From Bryobacterales bacterium (lineage in GTDB: Bacteria > Acidobacteriota > Terriglobia > Bryobacterales > Bryobacteraceae), in NCBI GenBank assembly GCA_003142355.1, contig PLMF01000406.1, positions 6,636 to 13,403 of the forward strand: DNA of 6,768 nucleotides, read 5' to 3'. A program made the position numbers and the translations under genes. Below are positions 1 through 6,768 of the stretch, one piece after another; positions within the stretch are counted from its first letter, which is position 1, and every line of letters begins with the position of its first letter. Under the pieces are notes generated by a model. The model was given only the letters and a program-made list of their open reading frames with translations. It did no database searches and was not told the DNA's origin.

Positions 1-965
1 AGCAGGTAGGCGCTCTCCGGGCGCAGGGGCTCGGCGGCCATCCAGATCAGGGTGGCCGTAAACTCGCGGCCTGCCGAGGGCGGAGCGGAAGGGTCCACCA
101 GCATGTCGCCGCGGCTGATGTCGAGTTGGCCGGCGAGCGAAACCGTGGGGCAGGCTTCCGGGCCCTCGAGCGCTGCCACCCGCGTTTCCAGGCCCGAGGG
201 CAGCGCCACCACGCGATCTCCCGGGCGGAGGCGGCCGGAGACGATCTGCCCGGCGTAGCCGCGGAAATCCAGGTGCGGCCGAATCGCCAACTGCACCGGG
301 AAACGCAGCGGGCCGGCGCTCCCGGTGGGCTCCACCTCCACCGTCTCCAGGTATTCGAGCAGGCTGGGGCCTCGGTACCACGGCGTGCGCGCGCCGCGGC
401 TTGCCACGTTATCGCCATCGCGCGCGCTCACCGGCACGAAGAACGGTTCTTCCACACCCAGCTTCGCCGCCACCGCGCCAAATTCGGCGCGGATGCGATC
501 GAACACGTCCTGCCGGAAATCCACCAGGTCCATCTTGTTCACCGCCACCGCCAGCTTGCGGATGCCGAGCAGCGCGGCGATATAGGCATGGCGGCGCGAT
601 TGCGGCAGCACGCCGTAACGGGCATCCAGCAGGATCACGGCCAGGCTGGCCGTGGAGGCCCCGGTGGCCATGTTGCGCGTGTACTGCTCGTGCCCGGGCG
701 TGTCGGCGATGATGAACTTGCGGCGCGGCGTCTGGAAATAGCGGTAGGCCACGTCGATGGTAATGGCCTGCTCCCGCTCGGCGCGCAGCCCGTCGGTGAT
801 CAGCGACAGGTCGAACCCTTCGGCGTTGCTATCCCGACTGGCTTTGCGCACCGATTCGAGCTGGTCTTCGTAGACCCCGCGGGTATCGTGCAGCAGGCGG
901 CCGATGAGCGTCGATTTGCCGTCGTCCACGCTGCCGGCGGTGGTGAAGCGCAGCAGGTCTTTCAT
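1..965 (-). CDS. cysN: Sulfate adenylyltransferase subunit 1 (CysN GTPase), C-terminus beyond left edge
   Basis: This is the regulatory GTPase subunit of ATP sulfurylase. GTP hydrolysis by CysN drives formation of adenylylsulfate (APS) from ATP and sulfate by CysD in the cytoplasm. Translating the minus strand from 965 gives 321 residues with no stop. The elongation-factor-like GTPase motifs are in order: G1 P-loop GSVDDGKST (11-19), G3 DTPGH (88-92) and G4 NKMD (143-146). An EF-Tu-like beta-barrel domain II follows, including [20 protein letters not shown]. The ATG shares its A with the TGA of cysD (TGATG), so translation is probably coupled. Family members are about 475 residues as CysN alone, or over 600 when fused to APS kinase (CysNC). 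The window stops before the point that would tell which this is. Identity is near certain; the fusion state is unknown. Confidence 0.96.
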
Positions 966-1864
966 CAGAAGTACCCCTCGCGCTTCTTCAACTCCATGGA
1001 GCCTTCCTGGTCGTGGTCGATGACGCGGTTCTCGCGCTCCGAGCGCCGGAAGCCGCGCAGCTCCTCAATGATTTTGGGCAGCGTATCCGCGGCCGAGCGG
1101 ATGGCCCCGGTGCAGTAGGTGCAGCCCAGCGAGCGCATGCGGCACAGCACCGTCTCGATGCGGTCGCCGGGCGCGGGCGGCACATCGTAATCCAGCGGGA
1201 TGAGCATCTCGCCGCGCAGCAGCATGCGTCGCGGCTTGGCGAAGTAGAGCGGCACCACAGGGATCTGCTCGAGCGCGATGTACTCCCACACGTCCAGCTC
1301 GGTCCAGTTGGAAAGGGGGAAGGCGCGAATACTCTCGCCCTTGTCGATGCGGCCGTTATACAGGTTCCACAGTTCCGGACGCTGGTCTTTGGGGTCCCAC
1401 TGGCCGTAGGCGTCGCGGAAGGAGTAGACGCGTTCCTTGGCGCGCGATTTTTCCTCTTCGCGCCGCGCGCCGCCGATAGCCGCGTCGATTCCGTACTGCG
1501 CAAGGGCCTGCAGCAGGGCGCCCGTCTTCAGAAGCTGGCAGCACTTCTGCGTCCCTAGCTTAAAGGGGTTGGCGCCCTCGGCGGCGGCGGAGTGGGTGTG
1601 GACGACCAACTCGAGACCGGCCTCGCGCGCCGTACGGTCGCGGAATTCGATCATCTCGCGGAACTTGAAAGTCGTATCCACGTGCAGCAGCGGGAAGGGA
1701 GGCCGGGCGGGGTGGAACGCCTTCTGCGCCAGCCGCAGCAGCACGGAGGAGTCCTTGCCGATCGAGTACAGAAGCGCCGGCCGCGCGAACTCGGCGGCCA
1801 CTTCGCGGAGAATGTAGATACTCTCGGCTTCCAGGGTCCGCAGGTGGGAATCGTCGGAAGACAT
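965..1864 (-). CDS. cysD: Sulfate adenylyltransferase subunit 2 (CysD)
   Basis: This is the catalytic subunit of heterodimeric ATP sulfurylase (ATP + sulfate to APS + PPi), a PP-loop ATPase of the PAPS-reductase-like fold. The 299 residues match the usual length of about 300. The PP-loop SIGKDSS lies at 34-40, the family signature [15 protein letters not shown] at 131-145, [15 protein letters not shown] at 182-196, and the C-terminal [14 protein letters not shown] at 242-255. The start is fixed: an in-frame TGA lies four codons upstream (1876-1874) with no other start between. No good Shine-Dalgarno sequence is visible. It lies 51 bp downstream of the sulfotransferase-fusion gene with no terminator between, and overlaps cysN by TGATG. 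Genes for sulfite or APS reduction are not seen here, so the APS may feed PAPS formation for sulfotransfer. That role is inferred from context. Confidence 0.97.
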
Positions 1865-1915: not shown

Positions 1916-4760
1916 TTAGCTTGCCCTTTGTCTTCCCGAGCTATCGCCGCCTTGCCGGCGCAGGGAGGGTTCGATGGCGGCGGCCGCCGCTTGCGCGTCG
2001 AAGGGATCGCCCAGGAAGCGCGCCAGCCTCGCCGCCGTCGCCGCCGGGTCCGCCAGCGCCTCCGCGTAGCTCACCGCCAGCACCGGGATTTCCGCGCGCC
2101 GCCGCAGCCACGTCTGCACCCGCACAAGCTGCTGCGTGTACGCGCGCATCAACCGCGCCTCGGCCAAACCGCCGCCCTTCCGGCCCAGCCGCTCCAGCAT
2201 GGCTTTCTGCGAGGCCACCACCTCCCGCATATCGCGGTGCATGAAGATCAGCCGGTACTGCTCGCCCTCCGGGAGGAAGGGAAGCAAGTGCGCGACAATT
2301 TTGACCGCCTTGCCGCGCGCGTGCGGAACCCACGACGCGTCCCGGTGCAGCTTGGTGGCCTGCTCGTGCTCGAAGTAGCCGCGCGGATTGTCTTCGTCCG
2401 GCGGGCGATGTTCATCGGCGTATGCCGGCAGGCCCGCGGCGGCCAGCATCTGCATCGCCATGGACGTGCCGGTGCGCGGCAGTCCCGCCACCACCGTCAC
2501 CACCTGCGCGCGGTCGCCGGGCGGGGCGACGTCGCTGCGGTCGAAGGCGGGAAGGCCGATTGGCCGTGCGGAGTCGGCGGGCGGGGAGACCGGCTCCGGG
2601 GGCCGCCGCTGCTTCGCCCGGCGGCGGAACTCGGCCGCGCGAGCGATATACAGGCTGCCTTCACCGATGCGCGCCCGGTCGCGCGAGATGAGCCGGCCCA
2701 GCGCCTCGAGCGCGGCCGGGAATTCCGGCGCCTGCGCCAGCGCCGCGCCGTAGGCCTGCTCGGCCTTCTCTTTCTCGCCCAGGCGTTCGAGCGCAAGCCC
2801 CAGCAGTTGGTGCAGCGCGGGTTGGAAATAGATCAGCGAGAGAGATTCCACGGCGTGGTCCACAGCCTGCTCGTAGCGGCGCGCCTGGAAATGGATGCGC
2901 GCCGCGAGACCGAGCGCTTCCCAGTTGTCGGGGTCGGCCCGGCGCAGGCGTTCGAGCAGTTCCATGGCGCGGTCGAATTCCTTCAGAGCGGCGAAGCCCT
3001 GGGCCAGGAACATGCGCAAGCCGGGGGACGGGCGGCGAGCTTTGGCGAGCTCGTCCAGTAGCGCCCGGGCGTGCTCCTTCTGTTGGCTCGAGCGGGGCTG
3101 GCTCAACGCCATACGGCAACGCAGGAACAGGCGCTCCACGGCGAATCCGCCGGCCTTTTCGGCAAGCTGCCGCCGCTCGAACATCTCGCGCCGGCCGCCG
3201 GGTTCCTGGCGCGCCCCGGCTTCCCGGTCGGGCTTCTGCTCGCGGCGGCGCTTGAGCTCTTCGGCGGCGCGCGGCGCGAACTCGGCGCAGGCCTTGCCGA
3301 ACCCGTCCAGCAGTTGCCGGCAGCCCGCGCGATCCTGGAGTTGCATCAGGCAGGCTGCCAGAATGAAGTAGAAGCGGCCCTGCTCCGGATCGTTCGAAAT
3401 CAGCTCGCGCAGCAGGGGCGCCGCCAGGTCGGGGCGGCCGGCGTCGGCGTGCGCCCGCGCCAGGTTGTAGCGCTGCTCGGTCAGGCAGTCTTCCACCGCG
3501 TTACGGCCGTCCGGACCGTCCCCCGGACCGAGCGGCGCAACGTAGCCCAGGTCTACCAGTTGCTTGAGGGACTCGGCTGCGGCCGCGCTGTCGTACTGTT
3601 CGTCCGCGGAGTGCCTCCCATCCTCGCCTTCCACCGCGTCCCAGCTCTCGATCCTCTGCACCGCGCGGCCATCCTCGAAGGCGTTGAGCAGCACCTTGCC
3701 GTCCATGTCCAATCCGGCTGGAAGCCCCAGCACGTGCAGAGCGGTGGGGGTTGCATCCAGAACGCTGGCGCCGTATACATGGCCGCCGGCCCGCACCCCC
3801 GGAGCGCGCAAGCAGAAGATGCCGAACGAGCGGTGCTCCACGGCCGGCCCGGCGGCTTCGGCCGGGATGTAGTCCGGCAGCAGGCGGTCGGAGTGAAAAC
3901 CGTGGTCGCTGATCAGCATCACGGCGCACTCCGGACCGGCCAAATGGAGAAGGCGTCCCAGCATGACGTCGTGGTAGCGGTACCCGTTCTCGACGACGCC
4001 GGTGAACAGCGCAGGGTCGGTTCCGGGCCCAGAGGGCGCCCCCTGCATGCGCTTGCCGGCGTGGTAGCGCATGAAGCGGTGGCAGAAGTGGTCGATGCCG
4101 GCGTAGTAGATGGCGGCCAGGCCCCACGGCTCTGTTTCCATCAGCTCAGTGGCGGCCGCATGCACGCTCATGGTTTCGGCGATGATGCCGGCCAGGTCGT
4201 GCAGGCTCTTGTCCTTCTCCTGGTCGATCTTCCGCCAGTCGGGCACGAACAGGCCGAGGATTTCGCCGCTGATCTCGGTGGGGTGTACGCGCAACTCGGC
4301 CATGCGAACGGCCAGGGATGCCGGCGCCACTGTTCCGGGCGGCATGGGCGCGCCGGGGTTGTGTCCGCTCTTCAGGGGGTAGAGGTCGGACACCATGGCG
4401 CCGCGGATGGGCTCGGCGGGGTGCGAAGGCCACCACCCCACCACCACGCTGCGCTTCCCGTTCTGGTGGACGATGTTCCACAGCGCCTTGGTCTGGCGGC
4501 CCAGGTTGCTAATGGGGCGCACGCTCAGGCCGTCGGGGGTAGGCTCGGTGAAACCGCAGATGCCATGCTTGGGAGGCCGCTTGCCGGTGGCGATGGAGGT
4601 CCACACCATGGGGCTGAGCGGAGGCTGAATGGTGGCGAGATTGCCGCGGACGCCCTGTTGGAGGAGGCGGGCGAGATGGGGCATCTCACCCTTGGCCAGC
4701 AGGGGAATCGATCACCTTCCAATCGGCCGCGTCCCAACCGACTAGAAGGAGGCGGCTCAT
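1916..4760 (-). CDS. Alkaline-phosphatase-type phosphodiesterase–TPR–sulfotransferase fusion, with a 5' frame disruption
   Basis: An uninterrupted frame runs from ATG 4684 to TAA at 1916 (922 residues). Its true N-terminus appears to be ATG 4760 in another frame, giving about 947 residues once a one-base indel near 4702-4707 is corrected (numbering below uses this form). Residues 1 to about 360 resemble type I phosphodiesterase/nucleotide pyrophosphatase (alkaline phosphatase superfamily): Asp10 in GWDAADW, Ser49 at the nucleophile position in PPLSPMVWTS, Asp223/His227 in GIDHFCHRF, Asp285/His286 in ISDHGF, and His342 in TPTALHVLGLP. TPR-like helices fill about 429-495 and 535-690, split by a charged R/E/Q-rich linker. 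After a proline-rich linker comes a sulfotransferase (about 751-925) with PAPS 5'-phosphosulfate loop GLPRTGTS (759-766) and a 3'-phosphate segment IFMHRDMREVVASQ with the expected Arg and Ser. No signal peptide, so probably cytoplasmic. The start overlaps the preceding stop (ATGA). Physiological substrates cannot be read from sequence. Confidence 0.88.
4701..4710 (-). other. Apparent single-base frameshift in the fusion gene
   Basis: Reading from ATG 4760 gives MSRLLLVGWDAADWKVID and then hits TGA at 4688-4686. The downstream frame, read backwards past Met 4684, continues as PLLAKGEMPHLARL, which joins smoothly to the upstream part in the way this family normally does. The two frames differ by one base, and the junction lies in GATTCCCCTG (minus strand), where one T or one C is surplus. 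Removing it gives VIDPLLAKGEMPH or VIDSLLAKGEMPH. The short C run is compatible with a homopolymer miscall, but a real mutation or +1 recoding cannot be excluded. Confidence 0.8.
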
Positions 4761-5593
4761 GCCGCGGACTTACATGCGGCGCGCCAGCGGCGCAATCCGG
4801 TGGCGCCCAGAGCCAGGGCGGCGAGGCCCGTCAGAGCCATAGTGGAGGGTTCGGGGATGGTACCGCCGGTGTCGCCGGTGTCGCCGGCGGCCAACTTCGA
4901 GCCCAAGGTGTCGTAAGCGTAACCGAGCAGGGTGACATCCGGCCCCGAACCGAAACCCTGGGGATCGCCTGACACGCTCATACTCATTTCCAGCCAGCCA
5001 TAGTAATCCATGGAGCCGGTCGGATCCTGGAAGTGGAACAGGGCGTATTTGTCATCGAAGCCGGCATTCCCCTGCACAGTGGCATTCGTGTTGCTCCAGC
5101 CAGTGCCGGTTCGGCGATAATACTGCTTTGTGGACGTAGTGGCCGGATTGGAAGCGGTTGGCGTCCGTGTGAAGTACTGCGTGGTCCGACTGTAGATTGG
5201 GTAGGAGTTGCGGTGGACGATGCGCTTGGCGATATTGAGGAAGTAGCCCGCGGGGCCAGAGTTCCACTTGTCGCCGAGGTTGAACAGCCCCAGAAAACTC
5301 CCCGTCCCCGTCTTCAGGAACTGAGGACCCACGAACTTGACTCCCCAGACGTGCCTGGACCCGTACCCAACCGTGTATCCCCCGCCCTTGACCAGCAGAC
5401 TTGACGCCCACGAGCTCACGGGGATGAGAGGGATAGAATTGAAGTTTCCCAACTCGGCGCTCACGATGGTCCCGGAGGGGAAAGAATAGCTGACGACACC
5501 CGCTTCGGCGTTGACCGCGGTGGCCGCAACCGCCCCCGCGCCGAGGGCCGAGAGCGATGCCAAGCGCGCTACGTTCTTCTTTTTAATCCGCAT
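4757..5593 (-). CDS. PEP-CTERM sorting-domain protein, exported
   Basis: This is a 278-residue exported protein of unknown specific function. The N-terminal signal peptide (basic MRIKKKNVAR, then a hydrophobic Ala/Leu/Val stretch) probably ends near the AVNAEA segment (26-31). The mature part is rich in Gly, Ser, Thr, Tyr and Trp, like other secreted PEP-CTERM proteins. A GDTGDTGG linker precedes the PEP-CTERM signal: IPEPS (246-250), a hydrophobic segment (about 252-267) and a basic cluster RRW-R (268-271). Such signals are recognised by exosortase/EpsH, usually in bacteria that make exopolysaccharide. The start at 5593 is preferred because GGAGG (5606-5602) sits 8 nt upstream and the signal peptide begins there; the frame is open up to 5881 but that extension crosses the promoter. 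The stop overlaps the next start (ATGA), so it is the first gene of the operon. Its GC is lower than its neighbours (57.5% in 5101-5220). Confidence 0.9.
   Translation of the reverse strand: MRIKKKNVARLASLSALGAGAVAATAVNAEAGVVSYSFPSGTIVSAELGNFNSIPLIPVSSWASSLLVKGGGYTVGYGSRHVWGVKFVGPQFLKTGTGSFLGLFNLGDKWNSGPAGYFLNIAKRIVHRNSYPIYSRTTQYFTRTPTASNPATTSTKQYYRRTGTGWSNTNATVQGNAGFDDKYALFHFQDPTGSMDYYGWLEMSMSVSGDPQGFGSGPDVTLLGYAYDTLGSKLAAGDTGDTGGTIPEPSTMALTGLAALALGATGLRRWRAACKSAA
4866..4887. repeat. Short tandem repeat, 9-bp unit, 2.4 copies
   Basis: The unit CCGGTGTCG is repeated head to tail inside the PEP-CTERM gene and encodes the GDTGDTGG linker just before the sorting signal. The unit is a multiple of three, so copy changes would alter linker length without breaking the frame. 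Confidence 0.6.
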
Positions 5594-5926: not shown

Positions 5927-6768
5927 ATGGGCACGTTTCCACTGGCGGACAACCTCCTGTTCTTTACGGAGCTGGTGTCCATGCCTGTGCTCGACGTCCG
6001 GGGCCGGCGCATCGGCCGCGTGAAAGACGCCGCCCTGGTTCCCATGGTCAGCTCCTCCCGCATCGACCGCGTCCTGGTCGGCGGCGGCTATACCTGGCTG
6101 ACCATCCGCTACGACCAGATCCGCTCCATCGTCCTGGGCAAGGGCATCGTACTCGACGACGAGCAGCTCACCCCGTATCACGACGACGAGTACATGTTGC
6201 GCATCGGGCGCGACCTGCTCGACCAGCAGATCATCGACGTCACCGGCCGGAAGGTGGTGCGCGTGACCGACGTCACCATGGGAATCCACAATGACGGCGT
6301 TCGCGACACGCTCACGGTTCTGGAGGTGGACATCGGCCTCCGCAGCATTTTCCGCCGGCTCTGCCAGGGCCTGGTTTCGCCGCGCTGGATTCGGCGGCTG
6401 CAGCGGCCCATTCCGCCCAATTCCATCCTGTGGGACCTCTGCAACGTGGTGGAGACCGACCCGCTGCGGCGGTTGCGGCTGAACATCTCCTACGAGAAGC
6501 TGGAGAAGATGCACCCGGCCGACCTGGCGGATATCGTCGAAGAGCTGAGCCCCGCCGAACGCGGAGCCATCTTCGAAACCATCGACAGCGAAGCGGCCGC
6601 CGACGCGCTCTCCGAAGTCGATCCCAAGATGCAGGCCAGCATCCTCGAAGCCCTCGAGCCGGAGAAAGCCGCGGACATCGTGGAAGAGATGGCCCCGGAC
6701 GAAGCCGCCGACATCCTTTCCGAACTGGAGGAAGGGACTTCCGAGGAGATCATGGACGAAATGGACTC
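5927..6768 (+). CDS. PRC-barrel-like and MgtE N-domain protein, 3' end beyond window
   Basis: The first 280 residues are present and the frame is open at the right edge. Two PRC-barrel-like segments come first: VSMPVLDVRGRRIGRVKD (about 17-34, extending to about 75) and QQIIDVTGRKVVRVTDV (about 100-116, extending to about 140). From about 187 there is an MgtE intracellular N domain of short, acidic, superhelical repeats: HPADLADIVEEL, then DSEAAADALSEV, EPEKAADIVEEM and PDEAADILSEL. In MgtE channels this domain precedes CBS domains and senses cytosolic Mg2+. Here the PRC-like front part means it is probably a soluble metal-sensing or regulatory protein, often continuing into CBS domains; whether membrane segments follow cannot be seen. 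The start at 5927 is chosen because third-position GC jumps there from about 54% to 87%; ATG 5789 is an in-frame alternative. No clear ribosome-binding site. It is divergent from the sulfation operon with no evident functional link. Confidence 0.85.
   Translation, partial: MGTFPLADNLLFFTELVSMPVLDVRGRRIGRVKDAALVPMVSSSRIDRVLVGGGYTWLTIRYDQIRSIVLGKGIVLDDEQLTPYHDDEYMLRIGRDLLDQQIIDVTGRKVVRVTDVTMGIHNDGVRDTLTVLEVDIGLRSIFRRLCQGLVSPRWIRRLQRPIPPNSILWDLCNVVETDPLRRLRLNISYEKLEKMHPADLADIVEELSPAERGAIFETIDSEAAADALSEVDPKMQASILEALEPEKAADIVEEMAPDEAADILSELEEGTSEEIMDEMD

Follow-up and report, generated by a model that had tools for sequence, protein, structure and literature searches.

What would an enzyme do with a hydrolase at one end and a sulfotransferase at the other? 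The question is raised by a 6,768-nucleotide stretch of DNA from a Bryobacterales bacterium of the Acidobacteriota (GenBank assembly GCA_003142355.1, contig PLMF01000406.1, positions 6,636 to 13,403; hereafter, the window). At positions 1916-4760, a sequence-only reading had noted one polypeptide that joins an alkaline phosphatase (AlkP) superfamily hydrolase, tetratricopeptide repeats (TPRs), and a sulfotransferase dependent on 3'-phosphoadenosine 5'-phosphosulfate (PAPS). That observation is partly confirmed here, and the interpretation given with it is partly supported. The strongest clue to function is the neighboring gene, which encodes a PEP-CTERM protein and which, like the strand and a frame change near the start, was not mentioned in the sequence-only reading. 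We favor, at a probability of roughly 0.45, a conserved two-gene cassette in which a PEP-CTERM precursor is paired with a cytoplasmic AlkP–TPR–sulfotransferase that would sulfate this partner before export. The domains, the conservation of their motifs, their folds, the gene pairing, and the PAPS-forming genes are all in evidence.

The enzyme gene lies on the minus strand; on the plus strand, 1916-4760 contains an internal stop and gives a different and unrelated sequence. Its long open reading frame (ORF), running from 4684 to 1916 (1916..4684, minus), has 922 amino acids and, by translation, Pfam, and homologues, comprises an AlkP-type hydrolase that lacks its first strand, a TPR superhelix, and a PAPS sulfotransferase. 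The three domain assignments were borne out by Pfam, in which PF01663 (E 3.6e-23, 83.2 bits, cut-off 23), the TPR families TPR_14, TPR_2, TPR_19, TPR_16, and TPR_8, and the sulfotransferase families PF13469 (E 2e-12, 48.2 bits, cut-off 27) and PF00685 (25.0 bits, cut-off 22) all score above their cut-offs. The AlkP nucleophile motif PPLSPMVWT (4598..4624, minus) has Ser in 76/76 alignment rows and is aligned by HMMER with the SLTFPNH stretch of the nucleotide pyrophosphatase/phosphodiesterase (NPP) Xac NPP. Motif search and alignment also located the metal motifs GIDHFCHRF (Asp and His; 4073..4099, minus), SDHGF (3910-3896), and EHRSFG (3838-3821), the last two spanning 3821..3910 on the minus strand. 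The TPRs (about residues 402-662; 2700..3480, minus) are recognized by Pfam and appear as helices in a model of the relative P0005.

Cofactor binding in PAPS sulfotransferases depends on a 5'-phosphosulfate-binding loop and on an Arg/Ser 3'-phosphate-binding motif. As the sequence-only reading had stated, both are present at the C terminus, in a domain (residues 715-922; 1919..2542, minus) delimited by Pfam, model, and fold matches. The loop GLPRTGTS begins at residue 734 (2462..2485, minus), with its R, G, T, and S found in 76/76 rows, and HRDMREVVASQ begins at residue 816 (2207..2239, minus), with Arg and Ser found in 76/76. By profile and both motifs, the C terminus of the window ORF is a predicted PAPS sulfotransferase.

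In the window itself, the first part of the protein is set in another frame. The span 1916-4760 is 2845 bases long, which is not divisible by three, and the gene start, MSRLLLVGWDAADW... at 4760-4689, is a separate 24-codon frame, MSRLLLVGWDAADWKVIDSPAGQG, that ends with TGA at 4688-4686 (4686..4760 in all, minus). The long ORF opens at ATG 4684 in a different frame. The 24-codon piece contains the first AlkP metal-ligand Asp, which is present in 72/72 alignment rows reaching that site, and near-identical residues form the continuous opening of intact homologues, including P0004 and P0005. No single chain in the window therefore holds a complete AlkP metal site. With its AlkP part split, the window copy may be inactive as a hydrolase, unless the break is a fault of sequencing; the frame change leaves the sulfotransferase part intact. 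In a model of an intact relative, the first AlkP strand stands at the very beginning of the chain, in agreement with the earlier remark that no signal peptide is seen.

The two frames could also mean that the window copy is a decaying pseudogene with a real frame change. P0003, a 98% identical protein, likewise begins with MPHLARL, and the L024 homologue is interrupted as well. However, 922 codons stay open past the break with all downstream motifs kept, and codon-position GC bias there is strong (0.74/0.49/0.87). The start of P0003 is not proof of a common break because GGTGAG sits just ahead of ATG 4684 and gene callers could choose this ATG unaided; P0003 was therefore rejected as evidence for a shared frame change. 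We consider gene decay very improbable. The interrupted homologue, from Solibacteraceae SbA3 (L024:9809-12735), is divided into ORFs of 395 and 884 amino acids.

The combination of domains is seen well beyond the window. A homologue search scored 7997 candidates, and 120 of the 2280 homologues were listed. Seven motifs were sought in them: the AlkP start, the nucleophile, three metal motifs, and the two PAPS motifs. Among the matches listed, the GWD start motif is part of the protein in 107, of which 100 have all seven motifs; the 13 without GWD have a later start or, in P0064, a single changed residue. In nearly all, a single protein spans 96-100% of the query (exceptions are P0035 with 79%, P0050 with 73%, P0100 with 90%, and P0107 with 83%), and the full Pfam architecture scores above cut-off in P0005, L010, and L006, the three checked. 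Chance fusion is excluded because the homologues carry all three domains over nearly their whole length, and two separate hydrolase and sulfotransferase genes were rejected as an explanation since the listed homologues are nearly all full-length single proteins. For the window as it stands, however, the claim of one polypeptide does not hold.

A scan of GTDB genomes, which used two peptide patterns only, found 30 loci. Their titles name Acidobacteriota groups, Verrucomicrobiota groups, and Victivallales, along with single metagenome-assembled genomes labelled Proteobacteria, Geobacteraceae, Schlesneria, Flavobacteriales, and Saprospiraceae, and one named strain, Cerasicoccus frondis NBRC 105381 (L010). 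Besides the interrupted L024, the ORF is without sulfotransferase in L025 and L027, L028 runs off its contig, and L013 and L029 have no start motif. In searches within the two main phyla, four candidates were scored per genome, so that the counts are lower bounds: at least one full-length match among 199 Acidobacteriota genomes, in the centre genome of the sample, and at least 9 matches at 1e-100 or better among 194 Verrucomicrobiota genomes, centre included, with AlkP and sulfotransferase in one ORF in 7 of the 9. In both phyla the architecture is thus met again, and its catalytic motifs are conserved. As judged from sequence, it is a real family, sparse per genome and widespread, and its earlier description as "unusual" is not supported. 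Searches of the open-licence PubMed Central (PMC) literature turned up no characterized member and no description of an AlkP–TPR–sulfotransferase fusion.

What the enzyme acts on is suggested by the gene just upstream (4757..5593, minus), whose TGA overlaps the ATG of the enzyme gene at 4760. It encodes a 278-amino-acid protein with a signal-like segment at the N terminus and IPEPSTMALTGLAALALGATGLRRWR at the C terminus. A PEP motif, a hydrophobic stretch, and a basic tail are all present there; TIGR02595 scores 22.1 bits (cut-off 16), and Pfam PF07589 is just below its cut-off (18.6 versus 20.7). Stop and start codons of the two genes overlap also in L001, L004, and L007. The signal is shared with known PEP-CTERM/exosortase surface-protein systems. 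Searches of the open-licence PMC literature turned up no description of such a protein paired with either kind of enzyme, sulfotransferase or AlkP, although one paper, PMC8776678, was listed with all three terms.

The pairing was assessed by counting same-strand PEP-CTERM ORFs that end no more than 450 bases upstream, with a pattern of our own and mechanically called ORFs. Of 39 loci, 34 were testable after L013, L029, and L059 (no recognizable start motif) and L005 and L014 (too little upstream sequence) were left out. A PEP-CTERM ORF lies just upstream of the enzyme gene in 18/34 loci, versus 5/287 other ORFs of the same loci, and 4 of these 5 are tandem copies of PEP-CTERM ORFs. The Fisher p value of 5e-16 is a guide only, because related species are not independent; some of the 287 control ORFs will not be real genes, and several loci share a genome (L014/L016; L055/L060/L061). 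Three-domain loci alone give 15/27, once the seven without sulfotransferase in the AlkP ORF (L025, L027, L028, L054, L057, L060, and L061) are removed. Alternative groupings tested by Fisher were 13/23 and 19/32, the latter with one row added by hand; 18/34 is the figure we use. L059, left out of the test, has a PEP-CTERM gene directly upstream. L082 holds two tandem cassettes; in one the AlkP–TPR and sulfotransferase parts are fused and in the other they are split, and both cassettes have a PEP-CTERM gene of their own.

When the window's PEP-CTERM protein was used as a query in 11 of the 29 genomes with a related locus, chosen mostly where a partner had already been seen, a relative was found at 1e-5 in 11/11. 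It is encoded by one gene in eight genomes and by two in three, and stands beside the enzyme gene in 9/11. The exceptions are G003, where the match is at a contig end, and G010, where it lies elsewhere, though L010 has a PEP-CTERM gene adjacent to the enzyme gene. To judge from these matches, the partners seem to form a distinct family and not to be just any PEP-CTERM protein; more distant partners align with only parts of it.

Is sulfate activated nearby? Directly downstream of the enzyme gene are cysD, the sulfate adenylyltransferase small subunit (965..1864, minus; TIGR02039, 438 bits, cut-off 397), and cysN, the large subunit, which runs off the window (3..965, minus; TIGR02034, 453 bits, cut-off 336). 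The model that scores highest for cysN, the CysN/CysC fusion PRK05506, does not reach its cut-off, as only part of the gene is visible, and any C-terminal adenosine 5'-phosphosulfate (APS) kinase would fall outside the window. In L001, from the closest genome found (G001), CysD, CysN, and an APS-kinase domain are encoded just upstream of the PEP-CTERM genes. These arrangements agree with the earlier suggestion that the enzyme acts where PAPS is made. APS kinase is found in 27/29 genomes with a related locus. By tblastn at 1e-5, adjacency to cysD/cysN was seen, besides the window, only in L001 among the 30 loci, and as a general rule it is not supported by the other 29. At the opposite end of the window, a divergent gene that runs off the end (5930-6766, plus) encodes PRC-barrel and MgtE N-terminal domains.

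A comparable arrangement is the raxX-raxSTAB system of Xanthomonas with RaxP and RaxQ for PAPS supply, where PAPS-forming genes stand beside the sulfotransferase RaxST as they do in the window and L001. In the Rax model, as given in an excerpt of one report, sulfation precedes export of a leader-bearing molecule (PMC4216712), and part of another describes RaxX as tyrosine-sulfated (PMC6637879). By contrast, the candidate substrate here is a PEP-CTERM protein, and the enzyme adds AlkP and TPR parts. No C39-peptidase ABC exporter is among the named neighbors, although no search was aimed at one.

The fold of the sulfotransferase bears on its acceptor. This domain was modelled alone, as an earlier fold search had barely covered it, and L070 (wrong frame) and L062 (masked residues) were left out of the alignment used. 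The tyrosylprotein sulfotransferases (TPSTs) TPST1 and TPST2 rank best, though narrowly, by profile and by VIA ranking. They share a GxPRSGTxLM-like loop with the window domain, to which they are about 16% identical where the two align. In the rows of alignments A1 and A4, two residues, Asp757 and Arg760 (numbered as in the window), are invariant, and by position relative to TPST they are candidates for the catalytic base. In the model, the fold hints at a peptide-type acceptor. Eukaryotic TPSTs are reported to be Golgi-resident (PMC6094398). The best fold matches of the TPR part include O-GlcNAc transferase and SPY. Those proteins, O-GlcNAc transferase and SPINDLY, also fuse a TPR superhelix to a transferase that acts on proteins, but the transferase and the donor are different.

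The hydrolase is harder to place. Among the closest known systems to the AlkP part are the NPPs (Xac NPP, ENPP1/3), and the profile match and fold agree with a type I phosphodiesterase/NPP, yet the fold matches the alkaline phosphatase PafA equally well. NPPs use Thr as the nucleophile; here it is Ser in 115/115 sequences in which the motif was found, including that of the window. S1 sulfatases carry the formylglycine motif C/S-x-P-x-R. The matching stretch in the alignment is S-P-x-x-W-T, and a sulfatase reading was rejected because the S1 motif is missing. The sequence-only reading had the hydrolase process the sulfotransferase's acceptor in sequence or clear the by-product 3'-phosphoadenosine 5'-phosphate (PAP), and neither gains direct support from this fold and motif. 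A metabolic enzyme that removes PAP (or PAPS) would suit the NPP-like fold, and the dedicated PAP phosphatase CysQ is above its curated cut-off in only 3/29 genomes. However, this does not mean that PAP removal is lacking: CysQ-related sequences, mostly below cut-off, occur in 28/29, and NrnA-type enzymes were not searched for. Such a role also leaves unexplained the PEP-CTERM pairing and the AlkP–TPR proteins that have no sulfotransferase, and we regard it as the least probable of the explanations considered.

Sulfotransferases that stand alone offer an independent view of the hydrolase. In other Acidobacteriota, 35 free-standing matches were found, and 20 were fetched, with 42-47% identity to the window domain. 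PF01663-type genes are on the fetched stretch in 13/20 (L068-L073 and L075-L081; not immediately adjacent in L070 and L073), with Pfam run on selected loci only, and are not on it in 7/20 (L062-L067 and L074). This is an independent hint, from related loci without a matched control, that the sulfotransferase and hydrolases of the AlkP type have a joint function. In L070, cysD/cysN are near the free-standing gene. A conserved Acidobacteriota block with a free-standing sulfotransferase (L079:2590-10333; similar in L068, L069, L072, L075, and L078) contains two PF01663 phosphodiesterase genes (741 and 666 amino acids) with signal- or membrane-like N termini, a PQQ beta-propeller protein, and a 364-amino-acid protein whose AMP-binding match is weak. 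L064:3613-7167 (plus) and L066:2121-5492 (minus) each hold one ORF (1185 and 1124 amino acids) that matches HTH, Ser/Thr kinase, MacB_PCD, and FtsX permease domains.

Several results weigh against sulfation of the PEP-CTERM partner, beginning with the 16/34 loci that have no flagged PEP-CTERM ORF upstream. Among these, a homologous or degenerate partner is seen by eye at L002, L025, and L056, the partner of L022 is 546 bases upstream, and in L010, L057, and L058 it is downstream; no partner was found at L003, L017, L018, L019, L021, L023, L027, L028, and L030 (9/34). In the C-terminal part of the alignment, as far as it was displayed, there is no tyrosine column common to all 25 partners. The lead of the TPSTs is small (12.5-13.2 versus 11.7 for other sulfotransferases), and the glycopeptide sulfotransferase Teg12 is top in Foldseek. 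Finally, AlkP–TPR ORFs without sulfotransferase stand beside PEP-CTERM genes at L054, L057, L060, and L061, which shows that the partner is linked to the hydrolase part in its own right; AlkP–TPR may be what is paired with the PEP-CTERM gene, the sulfotransferase being an add-on.

These last loci would suit an AlkP–TPR functional core that strips the PEP-CTERM partner of a phosphate or sulfate ester, while the sulfotransferase performs an opposite or auxiliary reaction. The AlkP catalytic residues, moreover, are invariant in all alignment rows that reach them. On the other side, two of the four loci (L060, and L057 as extended in L084) have a separate sulfotransferase gene nearby, and the window copy combines an interrupted AlkP part with an intact sulfotransferase. 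We judge a hydrolase core to be quite unlikely. AlkP–TPR paralogues of about 1000 amino acids also occur in other Acidobacteriota (L032-L050), 31-38% identical in the AlkP part where matched, and no PEP-CTERM gene was flagged within the short stretches examined around them.

The nature of the acceptor, tyrosine or glycan, is the main uncertainty. At L084, the PEP-CTERM gene is separated from the sulfotransferase by GT2 glycosyltransferase and methyltransferase genes, a further point against the favored reading. L010 has a NoeE-like match, though a weak one (2414-3451; E 8.4e-8, well under the cut-off), and an exosortase (L010:12987-14630, plus; TIGR02602 above cut-off) at a distance of about 6 kb from the enzyme gene. 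Together, these loci hint at a glycan acceptor. They are what would be expected if a sugar of an exopolysaccharide (EPS) or another non-partner glycan were sulfated, the AlkP domain acting on a phospho-sugar or carrier while the PEP-CTERM protein did no more than anchor that polymer. In keeping with this, part of one report states that exosortases are at EPS loci in most organisms and that PEP-CTERM proteins stabilize surface EPS (PMC12188702). However, among the named neighbors, such genes are restricted to L084 and L010; the others are AraC-type (L006, L008, and L011), metallo-beta-lactamase-fold (L007), and rhodanese-type (L088). Peptide and glycopeptide sulfotransferases also top the fold ranking, although heparan sulfotransferases are close behind. 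EPS sulfation is thus a possible explanation that we consider somewhat unlikely. As to the neighbors themselves, the AraC-type regulator is the first gene downstream of the cassette in its three Verrucomicrobiota loci, and the L007 gene (13377-14558, plus) encodes a 394-amino-acid protein whose displayed matches are below curated cut-offs.

Exosortases are found in 26/29 genomes with a related locus, and in the six taken as three-domain Acidobacteriota (G001-G004, G007, and G023), the count is 6/6 versus 46/198 others (Fisher p 2e-4); these six are related species, and the title of the G004 locus says Proteobacteria. In Verrucomicrobiota, 9/9 versus 142/194 is not significant (~0.06). Exosortases are common anyway (142/194 Verrucomicrobiota and 47/199 Acidobacteriota), a count that also tells against sulfation of the partner. 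The relatedness of the species and the result in Verrucomicrobiota weaken co-occurrence as strong evidence.

In the two-gene cassette that we favor, precursor and enzyme would be translated from overlapping or neighboring cistrons, and the TPR superhelix would bind the partner precursor. The TPST-like domain would then move sulfate from PAPS, made by the neighboring CysD-CysN(C), to the partner, on tyrosine or on an attached sugar. The AlkP domain might trim or proofread by hydrolyzing an ester, of phosphate or of sulfate, borne by this substrate or by its carrier, which is the weakest part of the proposal. To judge from its PEP-CTERM signal, the product would leave the cytoplasm through Sec, and an exosortase would sort it. 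A more specific version, in which each cassette of Acidobacteriota and Verrucomicrobiota makes its own PEP-CTERM target together with a TPR enzyme that captures this target during translation, sulfates a tyrosine, and can use AlkP to remove or process an ester on the target before exosortase sorting, is speculative, and we think it unlikely to be right in full.

The fusion alone would be mildly interesting; it is the recurring cassette with a surface-protein gene that makes the system worth testing. Because a sulfotransferase and one PEP-CTERM family go together in two phyla, there is a concrete candidate pair of enzyme and substrate, available also in the named strain C. frondis NBRC 105381. 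These results suggest an unrecognized route by which bacteria sulfate their own surface. If this is true, sulfate activation, surface anchoring, and the biology of biofilms and EPS would be linked in bacteria of soil and water.

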